From IMG/VR virus record IMGVR_UViG_3300009376_001132, positions 50,769 to 114,768 of that record: 64,000 nucleotides of DNA. One strand, 5' to 3'. The DNA is from a virus. Positions 7,742 through 61,990 of the stretch are shown in pieces. The notes beneath the pieces were generated by a model, which did no database searches, was not told where the DNA came from, and saw only the letters and a list, made by a program, of their open reading frames with translations. Made by a program: the position numbers and the translations under genes. Each line of letters opens with the position of its first letter. Position 1 is the stretch's first letter.

Positions 7742-7744
7742 CTA

Positions 7745-15822: not shown

Positions 15823-16068
15823 CTAGAAATTTTTATCACCATTAGCTTTGGAAACTAACAAGAACTGATCATAGCTCCAAAGGTGTTCCTCGCCAGTAGA
15901 GCAGACAACGCCATAAAAGAATCGGGGACTAGTTGGCAACTCGTTCGTGACCAGTACTAAGCCGGCAGTAGCAGGCAGATCACGGAAGACTTCCGAACCC
16001 TTCCTAACCCGAACAAGATCGCCAACCTTAAAGTCTCTGCTCAAAGTATATCCCTTCTTGGCTGGCAA
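15823..16068 (-). CDS. GDLV-type SH3-like protein
   Basis: 81 residues containing FKVGDLVRVRKGSEVFRDLPATAGLVLV and a closing aromatic strand FFYGVVCSTGEEHLWSYDQFLLV. This is one of the cleanest examples of the family: a K-V-G-D-L-V turn, a G-L-V-L-V strand about 20 residues later and a final W/Y-rich strand, as in a small SH3-like barrel of about 60 residues. Confidence 0.75.
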   Translation of the reverse strand: MPAKKGYTLSRDFKVGDLVRVRKGSEVFRDLPATAGLVLVTNELPTSPRFFYGVVCSTGEEHLWSYDQFLLVSKANGDKNF

Positions 16069-16103
16069 AGCACGCCCTTACGGCGAAAGAGTATGCCAAT
16101 ATA

Positions 16104-16328
16104 TTAATCATTCGAAACCTTCCGAACCTGATGGCTAAAAAACCATAAGGGTTTATCGGGATTGCTGGGGAACTGCACTCGAAGCTGAGGAACACTGCCT
16201 TGCTCGGCTAGAACCTCAACAACGAGACCGATCTCCTGCTTGCGGTCACTTGCACGAGGATGCTGGAAAGATCCCCCATGCCTACGGCGCTGGACAATAT
16301 CCCCAACCTTCACCGAACGGTTCCCCAT
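16104..16328 (-). CDS. GDLV-type SH3-like protein
   Basis: 74 residues, SVKVGDIVQRRRHGGSFQHPRASDRKQEIGLVVEVLAEQGSVPQLRVQF ending KPLWFFSHQVRKV. Same barrel pattern with a longer basic first loop, which could contact nucleic acid (inference). Confidence 0.75.
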   Translation of the reverse strand: MGNRSVKVGDIVQRRRHGGSFQHPRASDRKQEIGLVVEVLAEQGSVPQLRVQFPSNPDKPLWFFSHQVRKVSND

Positions 16329-16362
16329 GCGCCGCTTAAATGTTTTCCCGCAATTTCACTGC

Positions 16363-16557
16363 TCATGCCTTTATTAGTCCTTCTTGGATCATATCGTAAG
16401 CTGTGCGCCCATAGTGCCCTTGTAAGTTCCATGCAAGCCCGCTGTCAACTAGCTCTTGGAAGAGTTTAATGGTTTGCTTCTTGTCCAACTCTCCTTGCTC
16501 GTATTTCATGATGCTAGTATATAGCTCTGTGTTGTTAGTTGAGTTTGTGTTTGTCAT
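16363..16557 (-). CDS. Conserved small phage protein
   Basis: 64 residues from the ATG at 16557; a GTG four codons earlier is too close to the AAGGAG ribosome site. The segment [31 protein letters not shown] resembles a small helical family common in tailed phages, of unknown function. It overlaps the preceding SH3-like gene by 23 nt. Confidence 0.7.
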
Positions 16558-16738
16558 TTTTATCTTCACTCCTTTTTATGACAAGTTTAGTAATGCAGGC
16601 ATCTGGCACCCAATAAGCTTTCCCCATGAACAAAACTCTATGCCTGCCATGGTAGCCCATTTCTGCTAGCAGCCCAATGCCGCCAATCTCTCCTCCTACT
16701 CTTCCATAGGAAAACTCTACTAAGTCTCCAACTTTCAT
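16535..16738 (-). CDS. GDLV-type SH3-like protein
   Basis: 67 residues beginning [49 protein letters not shown], a minimal one-domain family member with a charged tail. Its start overlaps the previous stop by 4 nt. Confidence 0.78.
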
Positions 16739-16959
16739 TTTTTTCTTTCTTCCCTTGGTATTAGGTTGAGTTCTGTTTCTTTTAAGATTTGATTGCCGCT
16801 GGCAGCTATGTTAACTTCATAATAAGAGCAGCCATGTTCTAGAACGTCTGGATCTCCTGTTAGAGCTTTCCCGAGGTATTGGACAATGATGCCAACAGAT
16901 CCTCTTAGAGATATAATAGATGCATTCTTTTTTACTTCTACCAAATCTCCAGCCTTCAC
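16735..16959 (-). CDS. GDLV-type SH3-like protein, GTG start
   Basis: 74 residues from GTG at 16959: KAGDLVEVKKNASIISLRGSVGIIVQYLG and a later strand SYYEVNIAASGNQILKETELNLI. The GTG overlaps the stop of the preceding gene as TAGTG, which fixes the start; an in-frame extension to 17025 would overlap the 59-residue upstream gene for 66 nt. Confidence 0.72.
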   Translation of the reverse strand: MKAGDLVEVKKNASIISLRGSVGIIVQYLGKALTGDPDVLEHGCSYYEVNIAASGNQILKETELNLIPREERKK

Positions 16960-17138
16960 TAGGCATTCCCCAAGGACTGCCACCAAACTGGGAGAGGATA
17001 GGTACCGTGTGTTACCGGATCCCAAAAGGTGTCCTCTTCTAGAAGAACATCATAAGCAGCCAGAATGAGTGGAGGTAATGATCCCCAACTTTGGTCTGTC
17101 TCATTGATACGATTGATGAGGATTTTATTATTTTCCAT
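16959..17138 (-). CDS. Hypothetical 59-residue protein
   Basis: ATG at 17138 to TAG at 16959, beginning MENNKILINRINETDQSWGSLPP, then a Leu/Ala-rich helix and ending PVWWQSLGNA. Its stop codon is shared with the next gene's GTG start. Preceded by a 120-nt leader from the promoter at 17265. No family recognised. Confidence 0.6.
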   Translation of the reverse strand: MENNKILINRINETDQSWGSLPPLILAAYDVLLEEDTFWDPVTHGTYPLPVWWQSLGNA

Positions 17139-18611: not shown

Positions 18612-18639
18612 ATAATAGCATTGATCCAGTGTTTGTCAA
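18612..18639 (-). promoter_or_regulatory. Sigma-70-type promoter, 16-bp spacer
   Basis: Minus strand TTGACA, 16 bases, TATTAT with extended -10 TG, 22 nt before the ATG of the VWA gene. Confidence 0.8.
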
Positions 18640-18654
18640 CTTTTTATTGCTGCC

Positions 18655-18686
18655 CTCAAAACAGAAAGCCCAGCTTGCGCCGGGCT
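18655..18686 (-). terminator. Rho-independent terminator after the MoxR gene
   Basis: Minus strand stem AGCCC/GGGCT (18667-18686) with a ten-base loop, followed by TTCTGTTTT. It ends the MoxR transcript just before the VWA gene's own promoter. Confidence 0.65.
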
Positions 18687-18708
18687 CCTGACCTGGGATG
18701 AGAGAGAG

Positions 18709-25637: not shown

Positions 25638-25850
25638 CTACTCTTTTGCTGAAATATTATTCGTTTCCCCCGAAAAAGTCTCCACTTTCCTCAAGGCGTT
25701 GCAATGAATCATTTCGGGCTTGTCAAATAAAACTTTATACCATTTGAGGGCAGACGAGTGTGGCTCCTCTAGGATAACACCAAGCCGCTCGGGAACATCG
25801 CCCGCCATTAGCGGAACACACTCTTTAACGAGATCTCCAACTTTTAACAT
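25638..25850 (-). CDS. GDLV-type SH3-like protein
   Basis: 70 residues: MLKVGDLVKECVPLMAGDVPERLGVILEEPHSSALKWYKVLFDKPEMIHCNALRKVE plus a polar tail. A textbook family member, standing alone rather than in the tandem array. Confidence 0.78.
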   Translation of the reverse strand: MLKVGDLVKECVPLMAGDVPERLGVILEEPHSSALKWYKVLFDKPEMIHCNALRKVETFSGETNNISAKE

Positions 25851-33969: not shown

Positions 33970-34148
33970 TTGCTTTTCCTTTTCTTTTGTTTCTTTTTGT
34001 TGTGTTCTACCTGTGGCCACAAAACCATCTGCATAGTCTTGACCTTGGCTTCGAGCGCATCCAGTCTCATGTTGGTTGTATAATAAAACCCGATGAGAGG
34101 AACTAAAAGTGCCCCGATGGTTACAAGCGTTTTAATATCTATCTTCAT
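33966..34148 (-). CDS. Small membrane coiled-coil protein
   Basis: 60 residues, MKIDIKTLVTIGALLVPLIGFYYTTNMRLDALEAKVKTM then a Lys-rich end (HNKKKQKKRKSK). One membrane helix plus a short coiled coil. Its last codon overlaps the groEL start (ATGA). May be a small spanin- or holin-like component. Confidence 0.6.
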   Translation of the reverse strand: MKIDIKTLVTIGALLVPLIGFYYTTNMRLDALEAKVKTMQMVLWPQVEHNKKKQKKRKSK

Positions 34149-41442: not shown

Positions 41443-41766
41443 CTATTCTTCTTCAAAAACCCCAGCAGCTTTTAATTTCTTAAACGCAGCGTGTTCAATC
41501 TGGCTGATTCTTGGGAAGCTGACACCCATCCGCTCCGCAACTTCTCGCAAACTTAGTCCGTTTTCATTCTTGCGGGCACAAACCACGGCGCAGTTGAGAT
41601 CTTCTTCGAAATTCATAAAGTTGCGACACTCAGTTTGATCGCATGGAAGTTTCCACTTTTCGTGGACCTCAAAGCAGGTTGGGCTCTCGCTATACTGAAC
41701 CTCAAAATCCGTTGGTTGACGGTCAATATCTTCTTGTTGTTCTTTTGGTGATTTTCTATAAAACAT
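41443..41766 (-). CDS. Sigma-70 region 4-like DNA-binding protein
   Basis: 107 residues from ATG at 41766, overlapping the stop of the IMP-dehydrogenase-like gene (TAATG). The C-terminus GLSLREVAERMGVSFPRISQIEHAAFKKLK is a sigma region 4.2-type helix-turn-helix (compare E-V-G-x-R-x-G-V-x-x-x-R-I-x-Q-I-E). The N-terminus has CDQTECRNFMNFEEDLNCAVVCARK with several Cys. Regions 2 and 3 are absent, so it is not a full sigma factor; it might bind -35-like DNA or redirect host RNA polymerase. Confidence 0.7.
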   Translation of the reverse strand: MFYRKSPKEQQEDIDRQPTDFEVQYSESPTCFEVHEKWKLPCDQTECRNFMNFEEDLNCAVVCARKNENGLSLREVAERMGVSFPRISQIEHAAFKKLKAAGVFEEE

Positions 41767-42806
41767 TATTTTCTTGTTCCATTCTGTGTAAAAATATGAG
41801 TTCCACTCTCTTGGGTTCCCGCAGAAGTTTGGCGAGCCCATTCTACCTTGTGGCGCAGTTCTGTCAAGTCCCGAGCGCCGGTATAAGAAAGTCCAGACTT
41901 AATCCCTCCTTCTAGGTCTCGGAGGATATCACGCACACTACCCTTGAAGGGGACATAGGACGCCACGCCCTCTGGGGTGGATGACTTGTTGCGCCAATCA
42001 AGTTGAGCATCTTTGGAAGCCATGCCTCGATATTCTTTTACTCGGACGTTACTAGGTAAACTAATTACTTTACCGGGGCTTTCGGCTGTTCCTGCCAGTA
42101 GCGAACCACACATTACAAAGTCTGCCCCCGCTGCCAACGCCTTAACAATGTCTCCCGAGCACTTAATTCCTCCGTCGGCGATGATGGCGACATCTCGGTC
42201 TGTTCTGGCGCAGTCAAGGATTGTTTGTAGTCCCGGTAAACCGTGTCCCGTAACCAGACGAGTGCTGCAAATGGAGCCACCACCAATATTACAACGTACA
42301 GCATTAGCGCCCCAATCTGCAAGATCATTGATGCCCTCCAGGGTGCAGACATTTCCTGCCATAATATAGATATGATTTCCATACTCTTCCCGCAAGGTCG
42401 TGAGGGCTTTTTTCATTAAAGAGTGATGGCCATGTGCCACATCTACACAAAGGATATCAACACCCGTGGCGATAAGAGCTTCTGCTCGCTCTAAGTAGTC
42501 GTCGGTCACGCCGATGGCAGCAGCCACCTGACCAGACCAATCTGTGTGATGAACAACTTTGTGCGCCATCTTTTGCTGTTCGGTAATTGTATTATACCGA
42601 TGGAGAACAGCAAGACCTCCTGCCTCATTCATAGCCAGAGCCATCTGGACCTCGGATACGGTGTCCATCGGAGAGGCAATCACAGGAAGGTGGAACTCCC
42701 TGTGACCAAGATTGCTGCTAATGTCTACCTCGCTCCTGCTCGTGATGTCGCTGTACTGCGGCACGATGAGCATGTCGTCGTAGGTGACTGCTTCTTTAAA
42801 CTTCAT
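41766..42806 (-). CDS. guaB: IMP dehydrogenase/GMP reductase-family enzyme
   Basis: 346 residues. The TIM-barrel blocks are present: TYDDMLIVPQYSDI at the start, VASPMDTV-like SPMDTVSEVQMALAM, DVAHGH and NIGGGSICSTRLVTGHGLPG with the catalytic Cys, ADGGIKCSGDIVKALAAGADFVM and YRGMASKDAQ. CBS domains of cellular IMPDH are absent; length and lack of CBS fit GMP reductase as well, so the exact reaction (IMP to XMP, or GMP to IMP) is not fixed. It would adjust the guanine nucleotide supply for phage DNA synthesis. Overlaps the zinc-ribbon gene. Confidence 0.85.
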   Translation of the reverse strand: MKFKEAVTYDDMLIVPQYSDITSRSEVDISSNLGHREFHLPVIASPMDTVSEVQMALAMNEAGGLAVLHRYNTITEQQKMAHKVVHHTDWSGQVAAAIGVTDDYLERAEALIATGVDILCVDVAHGHHSLMKKALTTLREEYGNHIYIMAGNVCTLEGINDLADWGANAVRCNIGGGSICSTRLVTGHGLPGLQTILDCARTDRDVAIIADGGIKCSGDIVKALAAGADFVMCGSLLAGTAESPGKVISLPSNVRVKEYRGMASKDAQLDWRNKSSTPEGVASYVPFKGSVRDILRDLEGGIKSGLSYTGARDLTELRHKVEWARQTSAGTQESGTHIFTQNGTRK

Positions 42807-43083
42807 TTTGTTTCTCCACCAATTCCTTGGCTTTCTCTTGGCAGTCCGGACAGAATAGCCAGACCTTTTCTTTCTCTGTTTTCACCACCACTCGCCAGGT
42901 CATATGTGCCTCACGAGTTTTAGGGAAATCCTTTTCACAAGTAGAACAATCTTCAGGGAGCCTGTCAAACACCCCCATCTGTTTCTTCATTTTGTTTTGC
43001 ACCCGTTCGGTCTCTTGTGCAAAAGCTTTTTCCTTTTTTCTCTTTGCTGCTCGCTTTAATTTCTTTTTGTGTTTTTTGTTCAT
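42796..43083 (-). CDS. Small basic zinc-ribbon protein
   Basis: 95 residues. Lys-rich N-terminus (MNKKHKKKLKRAAKRKKEKAF), then MGVFDRLPEDCSTCEKDFPKTREAHMTW and VWLFCPDCQEKA give two CxxC pairs, a zinc ribbon. Similar proteins are common in marine T4-like phages with no known role. Overlaps the methylase gene by 4 nt. Confidence 0.7.
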   Translation of the reverse strand: MNKKHKKKLKRAAKRKKEKAFAQETERVQNKMKKQMGVFDRLPEDCSTCEKDFPKTREAHMTWRVVVKTEKEKVWLFCPDCQEKAKELVEKQNEV

Positions 43084-44516
43084 TCTGAGGGTCCTTCGTT
43101 TTGGGTGCGGTGGCGGTTGGCGCAGAAGTCGAACCCTGGGTCCGGACTGTAGGGGAAGACATCCTCCAAAGAATCTTCTAAACTATTAGCCACCGCAATG
43201 CGCTCAGTCACTATTAGGTATAATTTGGTCACGGCAGATGGGCAAGAAACAGCATCAGGGTTCGCTCTCTTCGCCTCCTCTTCTCTCTCCATGTGCGCCT
43301 GGAGAGCCACGGAAAGAAGGCGTTGCCTGCACTCCAGCACATTGTCCGGCATTATATCAATACCATAAACAGAACCAAGGGCGGTGGCAGGCAAAACACC
43401 TGCGTCAAGCTGACGCCGAAGAACTTCTACTAAAAAATTACCATTACCACATGCCGGATCAAGAAAAGTCCAAGGCTCATCATAATGATCCCAGACCTCC
43501 GGTGGGAGTTTATCAAGCATCTTATTTACTAACTCCGGCGGAGTAAACACTTCTCCGTAAATATCCGACCTGCCTTGGGTTTTGACCGTATAATCTCCAC
43601 CAAGAAGAAGCTCCTTCGTGGGCTTCTTGCGCCAACTCTCTTCTTCTATGTAAGCCACTTCGTCGGATGTCAGATTAAAGTGATCCGCCAAATCCTCTTT
43701 CCGGAGAGAGGCTAGCGCCGCAGGCAACCGCTCAAACACTCGCTCGTTTCCAAAACCAGACCACTTAGCGGTTGTGAAGATATATTTCATCAGCGGAGAA
43801 GACAGGTTCTCTACGAGCCGGTCCCCCTTGGTGCGAGATTTAACGGGAATATAATAAGCCATGTCCGTTATTCCAATCGTCCCGTCATCATAAAATGGTT
43901 TAAGATATCCGCTCCGGGTCCACACTACCTTCTTCTCGGTCATGCACTTTTGTTCGAGAGATGAATACCATGTTTGACGATTAGTGTGAAATACTGGATA
44001 AATGTGTTGTGAGGTAGGAGTCTTGGAAAGCGTTGTTCCTGTCCGTAACAAAATATTATGATTGGTTACATAATCATGCCGAACATCCAAACAATCACAG
44101 CCCCCAAACATAACCTTATTGTGAATAGATAATGACAGCGCACACACATCGTTAGGAAGATAAAAAAGATCTTTAAAAGCAATATGACACGGGGTGTGGT
44201 TGCGATCCGACACTAGCGTAGGGTTCGCAGAGGGTGCGGAAGTTTTTGTGATAGAGTAGTCACTAAACGAGGAACCAATTCCCTCAAAGTGTTCGTCGGT
44301 ATTGAGAGACACATAGTTAACCTGATTTTCCCTCATCAGCTTTAATATTTTATTGCTAGGCGATGACCAACTCTGAGGGCTTATCCACAGCAAAATGTCT
44401 CCTTCGTCCATTTGGTCAAAGATAGTCTGAGTCATTTTGATCCACACTTTATGTTGGGTTTTCCCTTGCTTTTCCCGGTTTTGAAAAGGGGGGTTACCCA
44501 CAACTACACGTCTCAC
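43080..44516 (-). CDS. N6-adenine DNA methyltransferase, permuted motif order
   Basis: 478 residues from GTG at 44516 with GGAGGGG upstream. The NPPF catalytic motif lies at residues 8-11, while the SAM-binding block EVFTPPELVNKM ... TFLDPACGNGNFLVEVLRR is near residues 320-365. Catalytic-first order is the reverse of gamma-class enzymes such as Eco57I and matches the permuted beta-like order. The middle (residues 100-300) would be the target-recognition region. It lies beside a nuclease-like gene, so a phage restriction-modification or DNA self-marking pair is possible. Confidence 0.82.
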   Translation of the reverse strand: MRRVVVGNPPFQNREKQGKTQHKVWIKMTQTIFDQMDEGDILLWISPQSWSSPSNKILKLMRENQVNYVSLNTDEHFEGIGSSFSDYSITKTSAPSANPTLVSDRNHTPCHIAFKDLFYLPNDVCALSLSIHNKVMFGGCDCLDVRHDYVTNHNILLRTGTTLSKTPTSQHIYPVFHTNRQTWYSSLEQKCMTEKKVVWTRSGYLKPFYDDGTIGITDMAYYIPVKSRTKGDRLVENLSSPLMKYIFTTAKWSGFGNERVFERLPAALASLRKEDLADHFNLTSDEVAYIEEESWRKKPTKELLLGGDYTVKTQGRSDIYGEVFTPPELVNKMLDKLPPEVWDHYDEPWTFLDPACGNGNFLVEVLRRQLDAGVLPATALGSVYGIDIMPDNVLECRQRLLSVALQAHMEREEEAKRANPDAVSCPSAVTKLYLIVTERIAVANSLEDSLEDVFPYSPDPGFDFCANRHRTQNEGPSE

Positions 44517-44537: not shown

Positions 44538-45731
44538 CTATTTGCCCAAAGGCACTTTCAGCCACATATTTGTGGATGTGGCCAATTCTTTAGACTTTTC
44601 CGGGCGCAAGTGTCCAAACTCAACAAATTGCTTGTCCTTTTTACACCAACGCCCTGCTTCATTGCACAACTGCCATGCCCCATTACGATTGAGGGTGAAG
44701 GGAATTTGCAACTCCATTAAAGGCGAACTCTTTCCGGAGGTTGTATGATGCAACCTCACATCAATGCTGCACCCGTCCTCACCCTGTCCGGACCTCTTAG
44801 TCTCCACTTCGAGTTGGTTGATCGGAATTTTTCCAATTTTCATAGTCTTCGCAAACGTCGGATCACTCAAGGTGTTCAGGGTCCGGGGCTCGCCGTTTTG
44901 GCAGAAAGTCACCACCGTTTCATGCTCGCACCCGAGACCGGCTCGGTGAAAAATACGTTCTATAAATTTATCTTGGTCGTGCTCAAGCAAGAAATTAAAC
45001 CATTTTTCAAAAATGGGAACAGCCGATTCTGTAAAACCCTTACATTTCTTTTTCCACCAGTCATCACCCGGATACACTTTATTGCCACGAAGGGCCGCTA
45101 CGCCAGCGGTTAAAATCACCAGTTCATCCAAAAGCTTGGCAGATTCCACGCCGTAATCTTTGAGGATCTCGGCTCGGGCATCTTCGCATTTCCCTTTCGA
45201 GCCAAAAGTCCGCTCTTTATCATGGGACTGGTAACGTCCTCGCCCAGCAACGTCATACGCTAGCCCCAGAAAGGTGGACAAATAGGTGCCCGATCCAACC
45301 TGAATGCGTCCGGACCTACGGTACTGTTTCAGGGAAAAGCTATAAACCATCTCGTCGAGATTGGGGTTGATGAGAGTTGTCTTTAGGTCGGTCTTTTGTC
45401 CAACCCCTTCTTTGAGCCCCTCCCGACCCCAGAACTCCACTTTTACTTTACTCTTCCCTTTGATATAGGCGTCCAACGAAAGTATAGACGTGGCGATGCT
45501 CGCCCCGCTCGAACGGGATAGAAGCTCTAGTCTGTCCAGTTCCTTCTGGAACTTGATTCTTTGCCCATCGTTTAGCGTCTGAGAGAACTCTGCGACTTCT
45601 CGGTCCTTTTCTTGCCGCAGGTCTTTGGAGTCTCCGTAAAACGCACCAGCCTTCTCAAACTCCTCAGCTACCTTAATTCCTGCTTCCATTTCGGCAACGA
45701 GTTCAGCTTTTTTCGTTAAATTGTTTGACAC
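44538..45731 (-). CDS. Restriction endonuclease-like protein, GTG start
   Basis: 397 residues using GTG at 45731; an upstream extension to 45794 overlaps the 55-residue gene more deeply. The segment WGREGLKEGVGQKTDLKTTL ... EMVYSFSLKQYRRSGRIQVGSGT (D115, then S-L-K near 133-135) has PD-(D/E)xK-like spacing. This sits 21 nt upstream of the methylase gene, the usual layout for a type II restriction-modification pair. The sequence outside that segment is unrecognised. Nuclease activity is inferred. Confidence 0.6.
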   Translation of the reverse strand: MSNNLTKKAELVAEMEAGIKVAEEFEKAGAFYGDSKDLRQEKDREVAEFSQTLNDGQRIKFQKELDRLELLSRSSGASIATSILSLDAYIKGKSKVKVEFWGREGLKEGVGQKTDLKTTLINPNLDEMVYSFSLKQYRRSGRIQVGSGTYLSTFLGLAYDVAGRGRYQSHDKERTFGSKGKCEDARAEILKDYGVESAKLLDELVILTAGVAALRGNKVYPGDDWWKKKCKGFTESAVPIFEKWFNFLLEHDQDKFIERIFHRAGLGCEHETVVTFCQNGEPRTLNTLSDPTFAKTMKIGKIPINQLEVETKRSGQGEDGCSIDVRLHHTTSGKSSPLMELQIPFTLNRNGAWQLCNEAGRWCKKDKQFVEFGHLRPEKSKELATSTNMWLKVPLGK

Positions 45732-45883
45732 TGGTTGAGATCCTCTTCTCGTTGGGAGGTTGTCTGACCGTTTCGCCAATAGACAGTCCACCACTGCTCT
45801 CCCTTGCGAGTGAAAGGCCCAATAGTCCGACCCTCCAGCCCAGTTTTGTCATCTACGACTTTAGTGTTAAGCGATAGTTTCAT
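45716..45883 (-). CDS. Small GDLV-related protein
   Basis: 55 residues from ATG at 45883, MKLSLNTKVVDDKTGLEGRTIGPFTRKGEQWWTVYWRNGQTTSQREEDLNQ. The layout G-x-x-I-G, then W-W-T-V-Y-W aromatic strand, resembles a shortened family barrel. It is the last gene of the tandem array and overlaps the start of the nuclease-like gene by 16 nt. Confidence 0.58.
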   Translation of the reverse strand: MKLSLNTKVVDDKTGLEGRTIGPFTRKGEQWWTVYWRNGQTTSQREEDLNQCQTI

Positions 45884-46149
45884 ACTTCCTCCTTGTTGGA
45901 TAGTGTATCACAGGAACTCACAATGTCAAAACAATTATGAGCATTTACTAACATTTCTTCAAACCGCTCGCCAGTTGAGAGCCACTGCATCTTCACATAC
46001 TGGCGGGGGGGATAGCCGTTGCTTGGCTTCGGGCCATCATAGGCTCGGGCAAGAACCAGAGCCAGTTGTCCGTACTTAGCACTATGACGGGCTCGTAAAA
46101 TAGTTCCAGGCTGTTGAACCGCCCACATCTTATCGCTGCTATCCAGCAT
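45880..46149 (-). CDS. GDLV-related SH3-like protein
   Basis: 89 residues, VQQPGTILRARHSAKYGQLALVLARAYDGPK then YVKMQWLSTGERFEEMLVNAH. PGTIL replaces the GDLV turn; the ALVLARA strand and aromatic strand keep the pattern. ATGA overlap with the next gene. Confidence 0.68.
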   Translation of the reverse strand: MLDSSDKMWAVQQPGTILRARHSAKYGQLALVLARAYDGPKPSNGYPPRQYVKMQWLSTGERFEEMLVNAHNCFDIVSSCDTLSNKEEV

Positions 46150-46345
46150 GGCTGACTACCTCCCAATTGATAGGCATAAAAATAACTCGCTCGCCAGTGG
46201 GGAATATAACATCGTGTGTAATATAGTTTCCCTTATCGTTTCGTGCCAGAATACCATACTCGCCATTATGCCTGACGGTTATATTATTTCGGCAGTGCTC
46301 CTTCACTCGGAGCAGGGTGCCAATCTTTAAATCAGTACTTGGCAT
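46139..46345 (-). CDS. GDLV-type SH3-like protein
   Basis: 68 residues from ATG at 46345: MPSTDLKIGTLLRVKEHCRNNITVRHNGEYGILARNDKGNYITHDVIFPTGERVIFMPINWE. Family turn K-I-G-T-L-L, Y-G-I-L strand. Overlaps its upstream neighbour by 14 nt. Confidence 0.7.
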   Translation of the reverse strand: MPSTDLKIGTLLRVKEHCRNNITVRHNGEYGILARNDKGNYITHDVIFPTGERVIFMPINWEVVSHAG

Positions 46346-46574
46346 CAACTTTTTCCAGAAAATATGCCGCTTCCCACACTGGCTCTTCATTATCAAAAGA
46401 TATTAGGCAGGCGTCTTCATTCATTTGTAATGTCGTGTAGTTCATCGTCTTTTTTCCTGTTCCCAGCACAACGCCGAGCCTGTCTTTACCGCCGATTACA
46501 AATCGCCTTACGATATCGCCGACCTTGAAGTGGTGGTCAGGTAGGTACTCAACTTGGCGGGGGGAGGTCTTCAT
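46332..46574 (-). CDS. GDLV-type SH3-like protein
   Basis: 80 residues from ATG at 46574: HHFKVGDIVRRFVIGGKDRLGVVLGTGKKTMNYTTLQMNEDACLISFDNEEPVWEAAYFLEKV. Strong match to the family core; an upstream ATG at 46589 is also possible. Confidence 0.75.
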   Translation of the reverse strand: MKTSPRQVEYLPDHHFKVGDIVRRFVIGGKDRLGVVLGTGKKTMNYTTLQMNEDACLISFDNEEPVWEAAYFLEKVDAKY

Positions 46575-46651
46575 CGGATGCGCCCCCAAAACCAGAGGAT
46601 GTAGCCTCCGATGATAGTGCCGTAAAAGATGCCGCCGATTAGCTCGCTCAT
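46571..46651 (-). CDS. Tiny membrane protein within the array
   Basis: 26 residues, MSELIGGIFYGTIIGGYILWFWGRIR, a single hydrophobic helix. ATG overlaps the upstream stop (TAATG) and its stop overlaps the next start. Different from the SH3-like neighbours; presence is supported only by this overlap. Confidence 0.45.
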   Translation of the reverse strand: MSELIGGIFYGTIIGGYILWFWGRIR

Positions 46652-46848
46652 TACTTCAAGTCCACCAAATATTGAACTGGGTATTGCTTGGATTCGTGTG
46701 CTCCGAACATCACATCAACGCACTCAATCTCACCGCCGAGATATTCATCAAGAGCCCAGTAGTTGGAGCGAGTGATAAGACCCAGCACTTGATTAGCAGC
46801 AACCGCTACCAAGTCTCCGACTTTATATCTTTTCCATTCGGGATTCAT
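46651..46848 (-). CDS. GDLV-type SH3-like protein
   Basis: 65 residues from ATG at 46848, MNPEWKRYKVGDLVAVAANQVLGLITRSNYWALDEYLGGEIECVDVMFGAHESKQYPVQYLV. Clear family member, overlapping the upstream stop by 3 nt (ATGA/TTGATG context). Confidence 0.75.
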   Translation of the reverse strand: MNPEWKRYKVGDLVAVAANQVLGLITRSNYWALDEYLGGEIECVDVMFGAHESKQYPVQYLVDLK

Positions 46849-47045
46849 CAATACATCCTCTTCGTCAGGTGGGTTTTGTGGATGTGTACCGTACTGCCAT
46901 CAGGCTTCAGCACATTCCAATAACTTTTGTTTAGCTCTTCAATCAAAACCAGCGGGGTCTTGTGCTCTGCGTGCCAGATAAACCAGTTGGCAGACAGATG
47001 GTCAATAGAGGTTTTGCGAATGCGAACCAAATCACCCGGCTTCAC
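46848..47045 (-). CDS. GDLV-type SH3-like protein, GTG start
   Basis: 65 residues from GTG at 47045: MKPGDLVRIRKTSIDHLSANWFIWHAEHKTPLVLIEELNKSYWNVLKPDGSTVHIHKTHL. The GTG AAG CCG GGT GAT start supplies the TGA stop of the gene upstream. Confidence 0.75.
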   Translation of the reverse strand: MKPGDLVRIRKTSIDHLSANWFIWHAEHKTPLVLIEELNKSYWNVLKPDGSTVHIHKTHLTKRMY

Positions 47046-47205
47046 TTACCACCTCCAACATCGTACTGTCTTTACTGACTCGCTGAGGTCCCATCTTCAC
47101 GCACTCTACCCACATGAACCCTGGGTCCTCATCATACTTTGAAACATAGCCAGTATCCATGACCGCCCCGTAGGCTGCGAACTGGACTAGTGTTCCAAGT
47201 TTCAT
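47032..47205 (-). CDS. GDLV-type SH3-like protein
   Basis: 57 residues, MKLGTLVQFAAYGAVMDTGYVSKYDEDPGFMWVECVKMGPQRV and the tail EVVSEAG that overlaps the next gene's start. One of the shortest family members. Confidence 0.72.
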   Translation of the reverse strand: MKLGTLVQFAAYGAVMDTGYVSKYDEDPGFMWVECVKMGPQRVSKDSTMLEVVSEAG

Positions 47206-47444
47206 GATAAAATCTCCGCTTGGTCATCAAATATCATAACGCCGTCTGCGTACATGTCAAGTCCTTTGAGAGCCTCAAAACGGACAATGGATGGATAGAC
47301 CTTGGTATTCTTCAAGAGCTTGTGAGCCAGTTCGTACTTTTGCTGGACAACTAGTCCAATCTCTCCTTCAAGCCTGCGGCGGATGCCGGGAGCAAAATGA
47401 GCCAGACCAGACTTATTTACTTTAATAATCTGTCCGACTTTCAT
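47202..47444 (-). CDS. GDLV-related SH3-like protein
   Basis: 80 residues, MKVGQIIKVNKSGLAHFAPGIRRRLEGEIGLVVQQKYELAHKLLKNTKVYPSIVRFEALKG. K-V-G-Q-I-I for the GDLV turn, G-L-V-V strand retained. Overlaps both neighbours by 4 nt. Confidence 0.72.
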   Translation of the reverse strand: MKVGQIIKVNKSGLAHFAPGIRRRLEGEIGLVVQQKYELAHKLLKNTKVYPSIVRFEALKGLDMYADGVMIFDDQAEILS

Positions 47445-47674
47445 GATACCTGCTCCATGTTACAAGCGTAGTCTACAAAGGCTGGCGTGCCGTCAAAAGG
47501 CTCGCACTTGTAGAAGATGTGGTCCTCTGCTCCTTCGTAGTCTCGGTCAAACTTACACGAGGGAGATAGTCCGACAACCAAAGCAAGTTTATTGATTTCG
47601 CTGCCTCCGCTGCTCCTGACCAACATACCAGGCTGGATGTGGCAGCGTTTCTGGATTTCTTTTACCAGGCTCAT
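47441..47674 (-). CDS. GDLV-related SH3-like protein, promoter-proximal
   Basis: 77 residues from the ATG at 47674: MSLVKEIQKRCHIQPGMLVRSSGGSEINKLALVVGLSPSCKFDRDYEGAEDHIFYKCEPFDG. PGMLV turn and ALVVG strand fit the family. A promoter (47692-47719) lies 17 nt upstream, splitting the array into two transcription units. Confidence 0.72.
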   Translation of the reverse strand: MSLVKEIQKRCHIQPGMLVRSSGGSEINKLALVVGLSPSCKFDRDYEGAEDHIFYKCEPFDGTPAFVDYACNMEQVS

Positions 47675-47691
47675 AGGCTCTCTCCAATAGT

Positions 47692-47719
47692 ATCTTAACA
47701 TGACTATGGCTCTTGTCAA
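47692..47719 (-). promoter_or_regulatory. Sigma-70-type promoter, 16-bp spacer
   Basis: Minus strand TTGACA, 16 bases, TAAGAT with extended -10 TG, within the tandem array, just upstream of the 47674 gene. Confidence 0.75.
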
Positions 47720-47949
47720 GTTTTATTTTCTGCCTTTGAAAGTAAAGTTAGGGCTGGTCTTGAAACCCAATAATCTTTTTCTGGAGTCTTGACCAAGAAC
47801 TTATTGTCGGCAGTAAAAACAAAACGCTCCCTGATTATAATGCCAGTCAGCAAAAAGTCATCAACATAATCCTCGGTCACACGACGCTGCATAAAGGACA
47901 CGAGGTCGCCAATATTATATGTGAACTCTGCCCCGTTATATCTATTCAT
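47716..47949 (-). CDS. GDLV-type SH3-like protein
   Basis: 77 residues, AEFTYNIGDLVSFMQRRVTEDYVDDFLLTGIIIRERFVFTADNKFLVKTPEKDYWVSRPALTLLS. N-I-G-D-L-V turn and G-I-I-I strand. Overlaps the upstream gene by 8 nt. Confidence 0.75.
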   Translation of the reverse strand: MNRYNGAEFTYNIGDLVSFMQRRVTEDYVDDFLLTGIIIRERFVFTADNKFLVKTPEKDYWVSRPALTLLSKAENKT

Positions 47950-48154
47950 TTTCTACCAACCTCAAATGATGGACAGAATAATATTCTTCCAGTTCGTAGC
48001 CAAGCCAATTAACTTTTACACAGGTTGTGCCGTGGTTTTTGACTTCGGGATATGAAAGAACAAGACCCAGTTGCCGACCGTGCCTCTCTTTGATGTGGGG
48101 GACTTCGCTAGCACTCCAGTTGGGCTCTACTAAGTCACCTGGCTTTAGATTCAC
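47942..48154 (-). CDS. GDLV-type SH3-like protein, GTG start
   Basis: 70 residues from GTG at 48154: VNLKPGDLVEPNWSASEVPHIKERHGRQLGLVLSYPEVKNHGTTCVKVNWLGYELEEYYSVHHLRLV. The longer reading to 48247 would overlap the preceding gene over 90 nt and has no ribosome site. Confidence 0.73.
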   Translation of the reverse strand: MNLKPGDLVEPNWSASEVPHIKERHGRQLGLVLSYPEVKNHGTTCVKVNWLGYELEEYYSVHHLRLVENE

Positions 48155-48338
48155 TAAGCACCTCCACCCAATGCGAACTCCACTTTGTTGTCTTCCCTGT
48201 CTTGGGGTGATGTACCGTAACAAGAAGTTCCTCGCTGCGGTCATCATAGGGATGGCGAGACCTCACCTCGGTAATAATACCATACCCGTGCCGCTCACGG
48301 CGGCGGTGGGAAACGTCTACCAAATCACCTGGCTTCAC
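48135..48338 (-). CDS. GDLV-type SH3-like protein, GTG start
   Basis: 67 residues from GTG at 48338, MKPGDLVDVSHRRRERHGYGIITEVRSRHPYDDRSEELLVTVHHPKTGKTTKWSSHWVEVLSESKAR. Basic first loop. Its tail SESKAR is encoded by the start region of the next gene. Confidence 0.74.
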   Translation of the reverse strand: MKPGDLVDVSHRRRERHGYGIITEVRSRHPYDDRSEELLVTVHHPKTGKTTKWSSHWVEVLSESKAR

Positions 48339-48495
48339 GGACCACCTCCACACTATCGCAATCAAAAGATACCCGACGACCACATCCCAACCGAACCAAT
48401 ACTTGAGGGAAGTCAGCAGCGGGATCTGTTAGAACGAGCCCCAGCCGGGGGGTGTCAAAACGCCATGTTACTTTTACTAAATCACCCGGCTTCAT
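48325..48495 (-). CDS. GDLV-type SH3-like protein
   Basis: 56 residues: MKPGDLVKVTWRFDTPRLGLVLTDPAADFPQVLVRLGCGRRVSFDCDSVEVVREAR. A minimal, well-formed member. ATG at 48495 overlaps the upstream stop (ends EILNEAG). Confidence 0.75.
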   Translation of the reverse strand: MKPGDLVKVTWRFDTPRLGLVLTDPAADFPQVLVRLGCGRRVSFDCDSVEVVREAR

Positions 48496-48676
48496 TTAAA
48501 ATCTCCAATTCACACCAGCGTTGCTTACACGGGGAGTTGCCGGGCATAAAGCTCCAGAGAACGTCGCACCACATATAGCCCGCTGGGCTTTTGGGTGGGG
48601 CATAAACTTTTACAATAACACCAGAAACTGAGTTGTCCATTTCGTGCTGGAACGTTACCAAATCACCGACTCTCAC
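48482..48676 (-). CDS. GDLV-type SH3-like protein
   Basis: 64 residues, MRVGDLVTFQHEMDNSVSGVIVKVYAPPKSPAGYMWCDVLWSFMPGNSPCKQRWCELEILNEAG. Family core with three cysteines in the last strand. Confidence 0.76.
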   Translation of the reverse strand: MRVGDLVTFQHEMDNSVSGVIVKVYAPPKSPAGYMWCDVLWSFMPGNSPCKQRWCELEILNEAG

Positions 48677-48863
48677 TCAACACCTCCTTGACTCGCCAAG
48701 CACTACAGCTACCGTTGCTGTCGTCATCAGTGTACCGCAACTTAACATGGGGATACTCTGAATCTTCCGAGCGCCAGTTGACATCTGTAAGAATAGCCAT
48801 ATGGTCTGACCTCATCATAACGAGGTCGCCGACCTTCAGGTTTTTACGCCACTCGTTGCTCAC
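48663..48863 (-). CDS. GDLV-type SH3-like protein, GTG start
   Basis: 66 residues from GTG at 48863: SNEWRKNLKVGDLVMMRSDHMAILTDVNWRSEDSEYPHVKLRYTDDDSNGSCSAWRVKEVLSESR. The GTG overlaps the upstream stop as GTGA; the extension to 48947 is shadow sequence. Confidence 0.73.
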   Translation of the reverse strand: MSNEWRKNLKVGDLVMMRSDHMAILTDVNWRSEDSEYPHVKLRYTDDDSNGSCSAWRVKEVLSESR

Positions 48864-49021
48864 TTGCGCTTCCGTTCCGCCAAGGGCTGAATGCGTTTGA
48901 AACTTTCCCAAGTCAGTTCTGGGACGACAACAGCAACCGCTTCCCATGCCTCCATGCGAGACATAGACGGGTCAGTGTTCTCAACGATAATTTTAATGAG
49001 TTCCTTGAACTTCGGTTTCAT
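48860..49021 (-). CDS. Small helical protein, first gene of the array
   Basis: 53 residues, MKPKFKELIKIIVENTDPSMSRMEAWEAVAVVVPELTWESFKRIQPLAERKRK. Not an SH3-like member; helical and basic. It directly follows the promoter at 49040 with ribosome site GGAGAGAG. Function unknown. Confidence 0.65.
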   Translation of the reverse strand: MKPKFKELIKIIVENTDPSMSRMEAWEAVAVVVPELTWESFKRIQPLAERKRK

Positions 49022-49417: not shown

Positions 49418-49975
49418 TTATCTGTCTCCCGTGGAACCGAGGGCTCCTTCGCCCCTGCTGGTTTCGTCGTCGTAGATGCTGTCAGACTCCACCAACTGAA
49501 CATCCGTGGTAATCTTTACGAAGACGGCTTGGGCAATCTTGTCACCAGCGTGGAGGGTCTGTGTTCGGTCACTCGGGTTGTGAAGGTTCACGAAGATCTC
49601 TCCTGTGTATCCTCGGTCCACGACACAGGCTCCAACGACCAAACCACGCTTGGAAGCGATGCCAGACTTGTTCTTGATTTCCAGCATGTATCCCTCTGGT
49701 ACCTCAATCTTTAGTCCAGTCGGGAAGAGCGATGATCCATGAGGCAAGACGCTCTCAATCTGCTTTGGGATGTCGTCCCGTGGCGCTGGGCAAAAAAACA
49801 AATCCATGCCGGCATCTGCTGGGTGTGCTCGTACAGGGAGCTTGGCGTTCTTGTGAAGTCGTTGGACTCTTACTTTCATTTTGTTTCCTTCTCGGTCAGC
49901 GCAGGCTGGTTTCAGATCACACCCGCAGTCATAACATTCATCAGCAACATTAAATAAATTTGTTTGGTCTTTCAT
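49418..49975 (-). CDS. dut: dUTP diphosphatase (dUTPase)
   Basis: 185 residues from ATG at 49975 (TAATG overlap with the methylase gene); an internal ATG at 49879 with its own AGAAGGA site would drop a Cys-rich N-terminal extension (ECYDCGCDLKPAC) that ordinary dUTPases lack. Motifs: HPADAGMDLFF (motif 1), EIKNKSGIASKRGLVV (motif 2), GVVDRGYTGEI as CVVDRGYTGEI (motif 3), HAGDKIAQAVF (motif 4) and the C-terminal RGEGALGSTGDR (motif 5). It hydrolyses dUTP to dUMP, keeping uracil out of phage DNA. Confidence 0.95.
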   Translation of the reverse strand: MKDQTNLFNVADECYDCGCDLKPACADREGNKMKVRVQRLHKNAKLPVRAHPADAGMDLFFCPAPRDDIPKQIESVLPHGSSLFPTGLKIEVPEGYMLEIKNKSGIASKRGLVVGACVVDRGYTGEIFVNLHNPSDRTQTLHAGDKIAQAVFVKITTDVQLVESDSIYDDETSRGEGALGSTGDR

Positions 49976-50526
49976 TAGCTCGCCGCCAAGATAATATCTG
50001 CTTCGACTTCATCGCCGTGACAGTCCCAGCCATCAACTTCGTGGCGAGCAAACAATTCAATCTTGCTCTGCTCTGGGAACATTTCCTCAATTCTTTTTCT
50101 TACTTCCGCCGGTTTGGCGCTGTGCTTCCCTCGCATCTCTGAAACCAGTTGGCGGATGTTGCGGGCTCCTCTTGGCTTGGGGATCTTTCCACGCTTGCCA
50201 ATCAAGCATAGTTCTACTTGACTCATCGTATAGAAGCCGGGGTTTACTTTTTGTTTGTCCCACACAAACCCTACGGTTGCCCAGGAGAATCCCCACGCCT
50301 TCATAAGTTCGATAGCTTGATCAAGGTGTGGGCTTGTTGCCCACAGGAAAAGCAAACAGTCATCGTCGCACAAACTTGGAACATCAAGCTTCTTGAGTTC
50401 AGGCAACTTCATACAGCCGTAGTGGCGGGTTGCTCCTCCACTATCAGGACCACCTTTGCCGGTGTGCTGAAGTTGTCCTTTGTAATCCCAGGGTGGGTCA
50501 GCATAAATGATTTGATACTTCTTCAA
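49975..50526 (-). CDS. MT-A70-family DNA N6-adenine methyltransferase
   Basis: 183 residues. IIYADPPWDYKGQL holds the DPPW catalytic motif at residues 10-13; YGCMKLPELKKL, CLLFLWATSPHLDQAIELMKAWGF and FARHEVDGWDCHGDEVE complete the MT-A70 pattern. This is the third adenine-methylase family in the window. It may protect phage DNA from restriction. Overlaps dnaE by 4 nt. Confidence 0.92.
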   Translation of the reverse strand: MKKYQIIYADPPWDYKGQLQHTGKGGPDSGGATRHYGCMKLPELKKLDVPSLCDDDCLLFLWATSPHLDQAIELMKAWGFSWATVGFVWDKQKVNPGFYTMSQVELCLIGKRGKIPKPRGARNIRQLVSEMRGKHSAKPAEVRKRIEEMFPEQSKIELFARHEVDGWDCHGDEVEADIILAAS

Positions 50527-53500
50527 GTGAGCCTCCTAAATGTCCTTCTAAGCGAGCGGGTGCTGAAACCCCACTTCTCGTTATATTCTAAGTTAGCAAC
50601 GTATACTTTGTTAAGGGAAATCTTGTCGTCATCTCTCACCCCCCAGCAGCGGATGCGAGCATCAAAGGCGTTGCTGTCGGTGGTGTGGATGACCCAGTAT
50701 TCCTTGCCGTTCTTTGTCTTTTTTATTTTTACTTCCCTCGGGATGAACCAGACCAGTTGGAGGTCAGGGTCGTACTCGCTGATGGGCGGGCAGCCTCGGG
50801 TCATCAGGTTGTCCTGAATCTCCTGCGGCATAATCTCATGGATGGGGAAGATGCCCGTGAGAGATGCGAAGTGTTCCAACTTCTCTTCCTCGGAGAAGTC
50901 TCCCTCTGGTGCGTACACATCAATATTTTCCAGCAGGTTCTTTTCCTTGCGTGGCCTGTCCACAGCGACGGCAGACCAGAAGTGGCGAAGACCTGTAAAC
51001 CTGTCGTCCATCAACTCGTCAAGGGCTTTGCTCCTGACCAGCACATCCAAAGCCTTCTTATTGAGTTTGGAGTATGTGATGTTCTCGTTGAAGATAAACT
51101 CCTCAATACTATTGAAGGGTCGGTTGGCTACAATCTGGTCAATCGCTGCGTCGCCCAGACCCTTGATGCCTGCGAGCGGCTGAATCAAAGTCTTGCCGTC
51201 CTCGGCAATCTCCCAGACTCGCCCTGACTTGTTGACGCTTGGCGGGACAATCTCAAACCCAAAGGACTTGGCTGTGTTGATTGCTCCTGCCTTCTTGTCT
51301 TCTGGTTCCTTGTCTAGGAACGCAGCCATCCACTCAACCGGATAATAATAACTGAGCCAAGCACACTGAAAGGATACGGCTCCGTAGGATACAGCGTGTG
51401 ATAAGTTGAAGCCGTAGCCTGAAAAGTATTCCATCTTAGACCACAAGTTCTTGGCTACATCTTCGGTGAGTCCGTGTTTGCCGCAGCCCTTCACAAACTT
51501 ATTATAAAGTTTGGTCTTGATATTATCTTTTCCTGTTCCCTTTTTCGTCAGGACTTTGCGGAGCAGGTTGCCCTCGTCCAGCGATAGGTCATCACCCAAC
51601 TTGTGAGCGAGCATAGCCAACTGCTCTTGGAAGACCAGAAGCCCGTATGTATCTCCGAGAACTTCTTTGATGATTGGGTGCTCGTAGTGTACTTGGCTAG
51701 GGTTAGACTTGTTCGCAACATACAGGCTGTGAGCCTTGGCGCTAAGTGGACCGGGGCGGAAAATAGCCGTGACCGCAGCAAAATCCAAAAGGGATTCTGG
51801 TTGTGCTTCTTGGCAGAACCGCTGTGCTCCACCGTTAGTCATCTGGAAGATGCCAGCCCACTTGCCTTTGTGGAATACCTCACGCCAGACTTCCTGATTA
51901 TCAAAGTCAATCGTGTCTGGGTGGAGATTAGTATTATAATAATCTCTCACCTGCTCGAAGGTTGGCTCCTCGATACCTTGATGGCGTTTGAGGATGTGGC
52001 GGATTGCTCCCGAAATCATACGGAGAGTTGACAAGCCGAGCAGGTCAAACTTAATAAAGCCGAGGGGCTCAAGGTGTCTAACGTTCTGACCTTCGCTCCA
52101 CGGTGTTTGGATGACACCGCCGGAGTTGATGAGCGGCATGTGTTTATCTAGGTCTTCAGCAACAACCACCCCACCAGCGTGCCGAGAAATACTCCGCATA
52201 TTGCCAAAGAGGTTATCGACATGAGTAGCCACCTCCGGGTACTTTCTAAAAAACTCTTGTAAGGTTTCACTGTATTCTTTTACCTCGTCAAATGTTGGTG
52301 TGTAGACGCCAGCGATTTGGCCGTGCGCTTTCTTGGCTAGGGGTGTGGCTTCGCTCATCATTACGCCAGTCACCTTGTTCACTTCGGTGAACGGGATATT
52401 ATAAAACTTGCCGATGTCTTTGATGAGTGAGCGGAGTTGGAGCGTGTTGAAGTTGCTGATGGGAACCACTGTTGTCTTGCCCCACTCCTCTGCTAGTTGT
52501 TCCTTGAGAACCATTGGCTCCTCAACATCAAAGTCAATGTCAGGGTATCCACTACCGCCCTTGGTCAGGAACCTCTCAAATTGTAATTGGTATTTGATTG
52601 GGTCCACTTGTGTGATGTCTAGGACATACGATAGGAGTGAGCCAGCGGCTGAACCTCGTCCGAGTCCGACCAGCATTTCCTCCTGGGCTTTATCCGAGAT
52701 GGCTTTCATCGTCAGGAAGTATTGGGCGAAGCCTCGCTCCTTGATGATGTTTAGTTCGTACTTCAGACGGTCCACATACTCGGGGTCTGTGATATTCTTT
52801 TTCTTCATTCCCGCAAGAGCGTCGGAGGTCAGAGCCTGAATGGCTGTCTTGCCTTCGGGTACAACAAACTCTGGGAGGCGAACCTCGCTGTTGGGAACAA
52901 AGTCCTCACATCGGTCAAAGGCGATGTGGTGTGTCCGCTCAATTGTATCACGGATGAAGGCATCATCGTATTCAATATTATATTTAGCTGAATATTTTTT
53001 ATAGGCTTCCATCATCTGGTCACCGTTCTTTGGGTAGAGTTCGTAGCCAACTTCCTCTACTGATTCGGGAAGCCCATCATCATCACCCCACCACTGTCCG
53101 CCGATGCGGCGGTACATCTCTCGGTCTTTCCAAAGTTCTGGTCGGGGGTAGTGGCTGTCGGCTGTGCTGATAACCTCTACGCCCATTTCCACGCAGGCTT
53201 GAATAATGAGGGCGTTACCTTGATGTTGCTCAATGATATCATTCCACTGGACTTCTCCGTAAAATCTATCCCCGAAGATCTCCTTAAAGCGGGCAATAGT
53301 GTCTCTCATTGATGCCAAGACTACATCGGCGTCGTAGGCCCCCGTGTCAGGGTCTCGATGCTTCCAGAAGTCTCCAAACAGAGGACCCGACATGCAGGCG
53401 CTGCTGATAATCAGACCCTCATTGTATTTGTCCAGCATCTCAAAGTCCATACGGGGATACCGATAGAAGTTTTCAGGCTGATAACTATCCGACACTAGCT

Positions 53501-60859: not shown

Positions 60860-61930
60860 TTACTTCTTACCTATTCTACATTCGTCTTCTAAAATGTCAA
60901 GAACTCTTTCTTTGAATTTCTTGTCTTCCAGAAGTTTTAGAAAGTCCTTACTTTGGAACTTTTTATCTTCCCCGTCAACGTTGATTGTATACCAAGCACC
61001 GCTGCGAACACAACCAGGCGTACCAGCGATGGCAGAAAGCCAGGAGCCCTCATCATTAACTCCAACTCGGTCATTAGCAAGGTCAAACAATACATCAAAC
61101 TCACAACTCCTTGGTGATGGACCGAAGCGAGACTTCATGGTCTTGGCACTCGTATGGAAGCCGATGACCTGTTTCTTGTCGTTTAGTATCTGTCCATTGG
61201 CTTTGCCTTTGTGTTGGGTCAACCAGATGCGAGCAGAAGCGTGATAGGGCAGAGCCTTTCCGCCGGGCTCCACTCGGTTGTCTCCGAACATCACGCCGAT
61301 GTTGGTCTTTAACTGGTTGGTAAAAACCAGAGCAATCTGCTCCTTGCCGAGCGTTTCGGTTACTTTCCGCATACCCTTGGCTAGTGCTTTGGCTGTCAGA
61401 CCAATGCGACTGTTGGGATCATAGTCACCCTCAACCTCTGCCTTGACTGGTGTTCCCGCAACGCTGTCCCAAACAATACAAACAAGTTTGTCTGGGGCTT
61501 TCTCACGGATGCGCCCAATCAATCGCTCAATGTTCTCAAACACTTCCTCGACCGTGCCGGGCTGCACATACAAGAAATTGTTCTTGGTGTCAAGCCCCAA
61601 CTGTTCCATGAAGTCCGGGGAGGCTGCGTTCTCTGTGTCGATGTAAACAGCGAGCCCTCCCATCTTTTGTGTGTTCGCCAAAATCTGCGTGACAACAAGG
61701 CTCTTACCGCTGGCAGACTCGCCGGCAATCGTGGTGAGTTTGCCGACAGGAATGCCGCCATCTCGGCGGTTAGAAATAATATAATCAAGAAGAGTCGAAC
61801 CCGTTGGGATCCAAGTCTTCACGTCTGTCGGGTTGTCCCCGTGCAAATCGTATGCAATATTCTCTTTGGCAGCCTTGTTTAATTCGCTTCGCAAATCATT
61901 TACAAGGCTGTTTCCAGCTTTGTTTGCCAT
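60860..61930 (-). CDS. recA: RecA/UvsX-type recombinase
   Basis: 356 residues from ATG at 61930 (ribosome site GGAGA upstream). Walker A TIAGESASGKSLVV near residue 70, Walker B KLVCIVWDSVAG, and IALVFTNQLKTNIGVMFGDNRVEPGGKALPYHASARIWL. The TWIPTGSTLLDYI start of the core and the long N-terminus resemble phage UvsX. It catalyses strand exchange in recombination-dependent replication. The ribosome site lies inside a 16-nt palindrome (61935-61950). Confidence 0.95.
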   Translation of the reverse strand: MANKAGNSLVNDLRSELNKAAKENIAYDLHGDNPTDVKTWIPTGSTLLDYIISNRRDGGIPVGKLTTIAGESASGKSLVVTQILANTQKMGGLAVYIDTENAASPDFMEQLGLDTKNNFLYVQPGTVEEVFENIERLIGRIREKAPDKLVCIVWDSVAGTPVKAEVEGDYDPNSRIGLTAKALAKGMRKVTETLGKEQIALVFTNQLKTNIGVMFGDNRVEPGGKALPYHASARIWLTQHKGKANGQILNDKKQVIGFHTSAKTMKSRFGPSPRSCEFDVLFDLANDRVGVNDEGSWLSAIAGTPGCVRSGAWYTINVDGEDKKFQSKDFLKLLEDKKFKERVLDILEDECRIGKK

Positions 61931-61934
61931 TTTA

Positions 61935-61950
61935 TCTCCATAAATGGAGA
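61935..61950 (-). promoter_or_regulatory. Palindrome masking the recA ribosome-binding site
   Basis: TCTCCAT and ATGGAGA form a 7-bp stem, with the right arm holding the GGAG Shine-Dalgarno sequence 4-5 nt before the recA ATG. A folded mRNA would hide the site, so it may tune RecA synthesis. Confidence 0.5.
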
Positions 61951-61990
61951 GACACCTGTACCCCGTGCCTCCCTGCGGGTTGGCGGCCAA

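Follow-up and report, generated by a model that had tools for sequence, protein, structure and literature searches.

A tandem array of predicted SH3-like genes in a putative tailed phage, with junctions that code in two frames and may permit the exchange of whole genes

An uncultured virus carries a tandem array of 15 small genes whose borders, we argue, are at once coding sequence and a repeat at which genes are exchanged. The array lies within a 64,000-nucleotide stretch of DNA (here called the window, bases 50769-114768 of the 114,768-base IMG/VR virus record IMGVR_UViG_3300009376_001132), where 15 co-directional minus-strand open reading frames (ORFs), with refined starts, encode proteins of 55 to 89 amino acids (aa) between 45716 and 48863. 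We give a probability of roughly 0.55 to the reading that this array is a recombination-ready set of diversified binding modules joined by dual-coding junctions. The edges at which related loci exchange genes coincide with the edges of these junctions. The gene content of the virus (endolysin, UvsX-like, PhoH-like) points to a tailed phage.

A first-pass annotation of the same DNA had placed about 14 tiny SH3-like genes at 45716-49021. The array is real and holds 15 genes, but it ends at 48863, and the 53-aa frame at 48860-49021, on the high-coordinate edge of the earlier range, lacks the family motif. An assembly artefact is argued against, because the same gene order, with nearly identical sequence, recurs in a contig of 171,926 bases (L045/L047). 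In the following list gene starts were picked by rule, orthogroups were built by single linkage, and percentages are profile-profile probabilities.

48663..48863, minus strand: array gene 1, upstream anchor (cluster 3), 66 aa, GTG start, ends SESR
48482..48676, minus strand: array gene 2, variable cassette (cluster 16), 64 aa, ends NEAG
48325..48495, minus strand: array gene 3, variable cassette (cluster 18), 56 aa, ends REAR, AlphaFold2 barrel
48135..48338, minus strand: array gene 4, variable cassette (cluster 19), 67 aa, ends SESKAR
47942..48154, minus strand: array gene 5, downstream anchor (cluster 1), 70 aa
47716..47949, minus strand: array gene 6 (cluster 10), NIGDLV variant, 77 aa, 78%
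47441..47674, minus strand: array gene 7 (cluster 7), QPGMLV variant, 77 aa, weak membership, 26%
47202..47444, minus strand: array gene 8 (cluster 13), KVGQII variant, 80 aa, 75%
47032..47205, minus strand: array gene 9 (cluster 11), KLGTLV variant, 57 aa, ends SEAG
46848..47045, minus strand: array gene 10 (cluster 0), 65 aa, AlphaFold2 barrel with helix insert
46651..46848, minus strand: array gene 11 (cluster 8), 65 aa, 87%
46332..46574, minus strand: array gene 12, KVGDIV, 80 aa
46139..46345, minus strand: array gene 13 (cluster 4), KIGTLL variant, 68 aa
45880..46149, minus strand: array gene 14 (cluster 2), QPGTIL variant, 89 aa, 65%
45716..45883, minus strand: array gene 15, 55 aa, weak membership, 34%

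The family start MK[PV]GDLV is written in DNA as RTGAARNNNGGTGAYYTRGT, and the same letters read out of phase give [SN]-E-x-[RG]-stop, in which a TGA within the Gly-Asp codons (GG-TGA-Y) provides the stop. Where successive genes overlap by 14 nucleotides (nt), an arrangement we call the -14 junction, the upstream gene ends in this way, as seen in the window in the endings SESR, NEAG, REAR, and SEAG. The codons for L-E-V that precede the tail hold the Shine-Dalgarno sequence GGAGGT of the next gene, and the conserved ending LEV[IVL][SN]E[AS][RG] is largely the next gene's ribosome-binding site (RBS) and start (MK[PV]GDLV) in another frame. Our survey covered 193 sources (1.78 Mb; 1,439 distinct proteins). 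Of 761 genes followed by a start at -14, 602 had the tail, against 13 of the 648 remaining genes; among these 13, several are chance matches or lie before a truncated next gene. In two loci (L006 and L125) the tail also precedes a non-family gene (MKLVRDGIPxII, MazG-like by eye) whose start, MKLVRDGIPEII, carries the required letters, with the same -14 overlap, and therefore the junction can accept unrelated cargo. Because the tail tracks the -14 overlap even there, it must be dictated by the neighbour, which rules out the SE[AS]R tail as an independent protein motif such as a degradation or sorting tag. Where a -14 neighbour is missing, members often stop with the strand (LEKV, LQVI), and no other part of the 48325-48495 structural model is predicted with less confidence than the tail block (mean pLDDT 77). 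The C-terminal aromatic strand described earlier is thus partly structural, but its last four residues and the codons of the RBS are the next gene's start read out of frame. Annotators should be cautious, as a C-terminal peptide can owe its conservation to the start of the gene that follows. The uniform K-[PV]-G-D-L-V start of the earlier description likewise holds in strict form (K[PV]GD[LI]V) for about 8 of the 15 genes, whereas others are degenerate (NIGDLV, QPGMLV, KVGQII, KLGTLV, KIGTLL, and QPGTIL), and the gene at 45716 has no start motif of either form.

The junctions of the array are as follows.

48653..48688, minus strand: -14 junction of array genes 1 and 2 (RBS, start, and stop of the previous gene), limits taken from the -12..+23 profile
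48472..48507, minus strand: -14 junction of array genes 2 and 3
48315..48350, minus strand: -14 junction of array genes 3 and 4
48125..48166 (limits approximate), minus strand: variant junction of array genes 4 and 5, overlapping by 20 nt owing to the MNLKPGDLV start of gene 5
47022..47057, minus strand: -14 junction of array genes 9 and 10

Across 517 junctions, 46 bits of conservation lie between -20 and +21 of the start, with a pairwise identity of 0.70 inside and 0.27 on either side, and the consensus of this element of about 35 nt is TGGAGGTgaTcAGTGAAAGTCGGTGATTTGGT. The fourth codon, for glycine, is GGT in 100% of -14 junction starts and in 69% of other starts. Many loci had been fetched by a junction pattern; when 184 pattern-matching junctions were left out, the 436 remaining junctions still gave 42 bits and identities of 0.69 versus 0.27, which rules out conservation as a by-product of our search patterns. 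The pattern search found at least 120 stretches of KV type and 42 of KP type in viral contigs, where the reversed-pattern control found zero. A search of 84,980 genomes of bacteria and archaea yielded six junction stretches, all from metagenome-assembled records, and cultured-phage records gave no match to a DNA search or to tblastn with three family queries, a weak negative given how short and divergent the queries are.

We compared 26 loci gathered by protein and not by junction. The anchors at 48663-48863 and 47942-48154 flank between 0 and 5 cassettes drawn from at least 12 orthogroups, in varying order and with some duplicated, and cassettes 6, 9, 12, and 15 are found elsewhere in the array too. 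The first-pass annotation had proposed counting members in related genomes, and this comparison reveals their turnover between related phages. Locus pairs with the same left gene had different right neighbours in 166 of 243 cases at -14 junctions versus 124 of 350 at other short junctions (p 0.009, junction type permuted among left genes). Where two loci share the left gene only, identity stays near 0.7 up to +23 and is random from +24; where they share the right gene only, it is random through -13 and rises to 0.78 at -12. Between the window and locus L049, gene 3 is similar through the junction and the cassettes beyond it are different, and the edge is seen directly in L049 versus L053 as well.

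The junction might instead be kept for translation only, as an optimal RBS, start, and overlap that give coupled, equimolar expression, with the cassettes brought together by illegitimate recombination and selection for in-frame boundaries. In keeping with this, the junction has a rightly spaced GGAGGT and an overlapping start, and the overlap serves the non-family MKLVRDG start too. The identity, however, extends beyond the RBS to +23, the exchange edges fall exactly at both ends of the repeat, and -14 junctions show more neighbour diversity than other short overlaps, which would make equally good gene boundaries. We regard this explanation as unlikely.

Under the recombination-ready reading, the array would be a co-directional, probably early, phage operon of small SH3-like barrel proteins; early expression is suggested because the array sits among DNA-metabolism genes. 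Read in one frame, the junction encodes how the preceding protein finishes, its final strand plus tail (L-E-V-[IVL]-[SN]-E-[AS]-[RG]-stop), and in the other it holds the downstream Shine-Dalgarno sequence, start codon, and first residues, M-K-[PV]-G-D-L-V. We infer that homologous recombination between near-identical junctions, by a phage UvsX-like or a host recombinase, would delete, duplicate, insert, or swap whole genes. Since the junctions are nearly the same DNA, every such exchange would leave a working stop, RBS, and start, and the overlap would probably couple the translation of successive genes. A candidate for the exchange enzyme is encoded in the window.

60860..61990, minus strand: UvsX/RecA-like recombinase, candidate exchange enzyme, putatively linked to the array

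Several points weigh against this reading. Among 217 successive gene pairs in protein-anchored loci, 66 were joined by the -14 junction, 84 by other short junctions, and 67 were separated by gaps, so the -14 junction is one common joining mode among several. Constraints on translation and on protein could by themselves keep the junction conserved, and the second codon positions of L-x-V-[IV] together with the Shine-Dalgarno bases account for much of its conservation. The loci are contigs of uncultured viruses with common ancestry, and our counts are not of independent events. The case for an adaptor or inhibitor role is made up of predicted fold, size, turnover, and neighbourhood.

The closest known parallel in working is provided by the PeSL cassettes of T4-type phages, PeSLs being intergenic promoter/terminator stem-loop elements. 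Short repeats between small non-essential early genes reportedly mediate the modular shuffling of these cassettes. Like these cassettes, the array has a repeat at its borders, genes that vary in mosaic fashion, and exchanges whose edges coincide with the repeat; it differs in that its repeat is a coding overlap read in two frames (RBS, start, and stop) and that nearly all of its units share one fold. Arbiol et al. 2010 and Comeau et al. 2014 are cited on PeSL cassettes in PMC4503421. The start-associated sequence (SAS) of Cluster K mycobacteriophages, a repeat of 13 bp just upstream of the starts of unrelated genes, also contains a Shine-Dalgarno core; it precedes numerous genes of the non-structural genome half and sometimes has the upstream stop inside it (PMC3203893). 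The array junction, by contrast, extends over about 35 nt and takes in the RBS, both the start and the stop, and the opening seven codons of genes from a single family, and its consensus does not contain the 13-bp Cluster K sequence GGGATAGGAGCCC. Phage mosaicism is often credited to illegitimate recombination, shared border sequences being rarely found (PMC3029335). The conserved boundary-sequence model discussed there resembles our reading in that short sequences common to gene borders serve homologous recombination, whereas the borders of the array are visible in hundreds of copies and code in two frames. We found no account of such arrays in the literature that we searched. A border repeated hundreds of times and coding in two frames makes gene-by-gene exchange directly testable.

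Do the units constitute one family? A profile built from 186 core members in 43 loci matched 403 ORFs at E<=0.01, while the best shuffled ORF scored 0.064 and none reached 0.01. Each of the two rounds of profile search directly matched 9 of the 15 array genes at E<=0.01. We also compared each orthogroup with members from non-syntenic viruses by profile-profile alignment, for which reversed controls gave about 1% or less. Nine array genes reached probabilities of at least 95%, four lay between 65 and 87% (47716, 47202, 46651, and 45880), and two were weak (47441 at 26% and 45716 at 34%), so that family membership is supported for 13 of the 15. The alignment for 46848 spans only 14 columns; its AlphaFold2 model nonetheless shows a barrel. 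A body-only profile, stripped of the N-terminal motif and of nine residues at the C terminus and used with separate training and test loci, gave E<=1 for 132 of 282 test bodies without a BLAST relative in the training set versus 3 of 699 shuffles, and homology confined to the shared ends is thereby ruled out.

The SH3-like fold proposed by the first-pass annotation is shared by the two members that were modelled, each a barrel of five strands in which a short 3-10-like turn leads into the final strand. For 48325-48495, AlphaFold2 gave a five-stranded SH3-like barrel (pLDDT 90.6), and for 46848-47045 the same barrel plus an inserted helix (pLDDT 95.6). Among solved folds, Foldseek places the former closest to Tudor domains (PHF1/PHF19, TM about 0.8), Spt5 chains ranking lower, and the latter reaches TM about 0.6 to Tudor domains; the E values are modest (0.02-0.09), as is usual for barrels so small. 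On these models, the array products are predicted to be small SH3-like barrel proteins of Tudor/KOW type. They share the five-stranded barrel and a G-D near the N terminus with the KOW/Tudor domains of NusG, uL24, PHF1/PHF19, and, by prediction, the N terminus of T4 MotB, but they are free-standing, about 50-90 aa long, and in tandem, and the Tudor likeness is one of fold only. Pfam and PHROG scans of the window members returned scattered weak matches, none reliable. The family, nearly invisible to both databases, offers a large collection of natural variants of a single small fold whose loops differ.

One alternative drawn from this fold is that the proteins are KOW-like binders of nucleic acid, or of ribosome or RNA polymerase, with one shared role, for example in modulating host transcription or translation as the phage takes over, the copies supplying dosage. 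The best sequence-profile matches among solved structures in the PDB are the NusG KOW domain (E 0.009) and uL24 (E 0.06), both marginal, and a KOW domain is predicted for MotB, an early T4 protein that binds DNA (PMC7827196). The KOW profile PF00467 itself matched 1 of 75 members, at E 0.005 and below the reliable score. Net charge is mixed (mean -0.9; -2 or lower in 37% of members, +2 or higher in 23%), which weakens a single nucleic-acid-binding role and favours varied partners. Pure dosage, moreover, fits poorly with paralogues that are very different outside the core and with content that varies among relatives, and we judge this alternative to be quite unlikely.

Selection bears on a further alternative. 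Within orthologues, with overlapped ends left out, median dN/dS (nonsynonymous to synonymous rate ratio) for most clusters is 0.13-0.47; it is higher in two clusters, which comprise one or two pairs. Orthologues are under purifying selection, and diversifying selection inside them was not found. The diversity therefore comes from exchange and from the divergence of paralogues rather than from fast change within genes. A Shine-Dalgarno core of at least four bases is found in 78% of members. The earlier suggestions that the expansion reflects diversification against host targets or a set of adaptors remain conjectural. Could the array be a largely neutral or selfish amplification, in which junction repeats ease unequal crossing-over and most copies do little? 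Such repeats do favour expansion, the number of copies between the anchors varies from 0 to 5, and some next genes appear truncated (e.g., L103 and L128). Against this stand a dN/dS far under 1 in nearly all clusters and the retention of several genes in most related loci, which make it very improbable.

Returning to the array as an exchangeable set of binding modules, we tentatively suggest, at somewhat less than even odds, that its products may be accessory modules that bind a range of proteins of the host or of anti-phage defence, with a repertoire tuned by cassette turnover. A more specific version, which we hold to be doubtful, is a combinatorial array in which many lineages of one mini-barrel fold would let the phage quickly re-assort a stock of inhibitors or adaptors aimed at proteins of the host or of its defences; in it the start motif MK[PV]GD, RTGAARNNNGGTGAY, would be start codon, previous gene's stop, and, with the upstream Shine-Dalgarno sequence, recombination junction, so that any cassette could be linked to another and still function. 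None of eight array members matched in PADLOC, a library of defence systems that has little bearing on counter-defence.

A total of about 30 related genes and domains had been claimed for the window, which is not confirmed: 14 are significant in the whole 114.8-kb contig (A1 profile), or roughly 20-25 once divergent array genes, a second cluster, a singleton, and C-terminal domains of larger genes are added. A large expansion in phages is supported, and profile counts reach 25-33 members in other viral records. The members outside the array are as follows.

15823..17025, minus strand: second small cluster of SH3-like genes (15823-16044, 16104-16313, 16535-16738, and 16735-17025, the last matched only in the second profile round)
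25638..25850, minus strand: isolated family member (family profile, E about 1e-6)

Three larger minus-strand proteins (28773-29555, 30644-31279, and 1835-2308) have apparent SH3-like C-terminal domains (e.g., with YKPGTLV...LEVVNEV-like endings); they have no Pfam match and weak family-profile scores.

Genes of DNA metabolism lie close to the array.

49418-49975: dUTPase-like gene, by eye
49975-50526: MT-A70 gene
50523-53933: Pol III alpha gene

On its other side, a minus-strand type II-like DNA methyltransferase (43080-44516; PADLOC MTase_II, E 3e-13) adjoins a matchless gene of 397 aa (44538-45731) that is perhaps its partner. The remaining observations concern other minus-strand genes of the window. 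Genes for PrkA kinase (5798-7741), SpoVR (7745-9061), and a DUF444/YeaH-like protein (9054-10244), all with strong Pfam matches, are adjacent at 5798-10244, and this triad is known as a bacterial operon. A Cpn60/GroEL-like chaperonin gene lies at 32383-34020 (Pfam E 9e-64), and an IMP dehydrogenase / GMP reductase domain protein, unusual for a phage, at 41766-42806 (Pfam E 1e-104). Within 55-974, a PP-loop (TilS-like) protein at 170-853 overlaps a tRNA-Met(cat) at 132-208, which could be a tRNA-Ile requiring lysidine. Four unrelated genes (10566-11696, 13452-14282, 38032-38859, and 55237-55935) share, by eye, a similar N-terminal peptide (MKxLMENWRxFLxE-like). At 17370-19749, a MoxR-like AAA ATPase (18709-19749) adjoins a protein that is VWA-like by eye (17370-18590).

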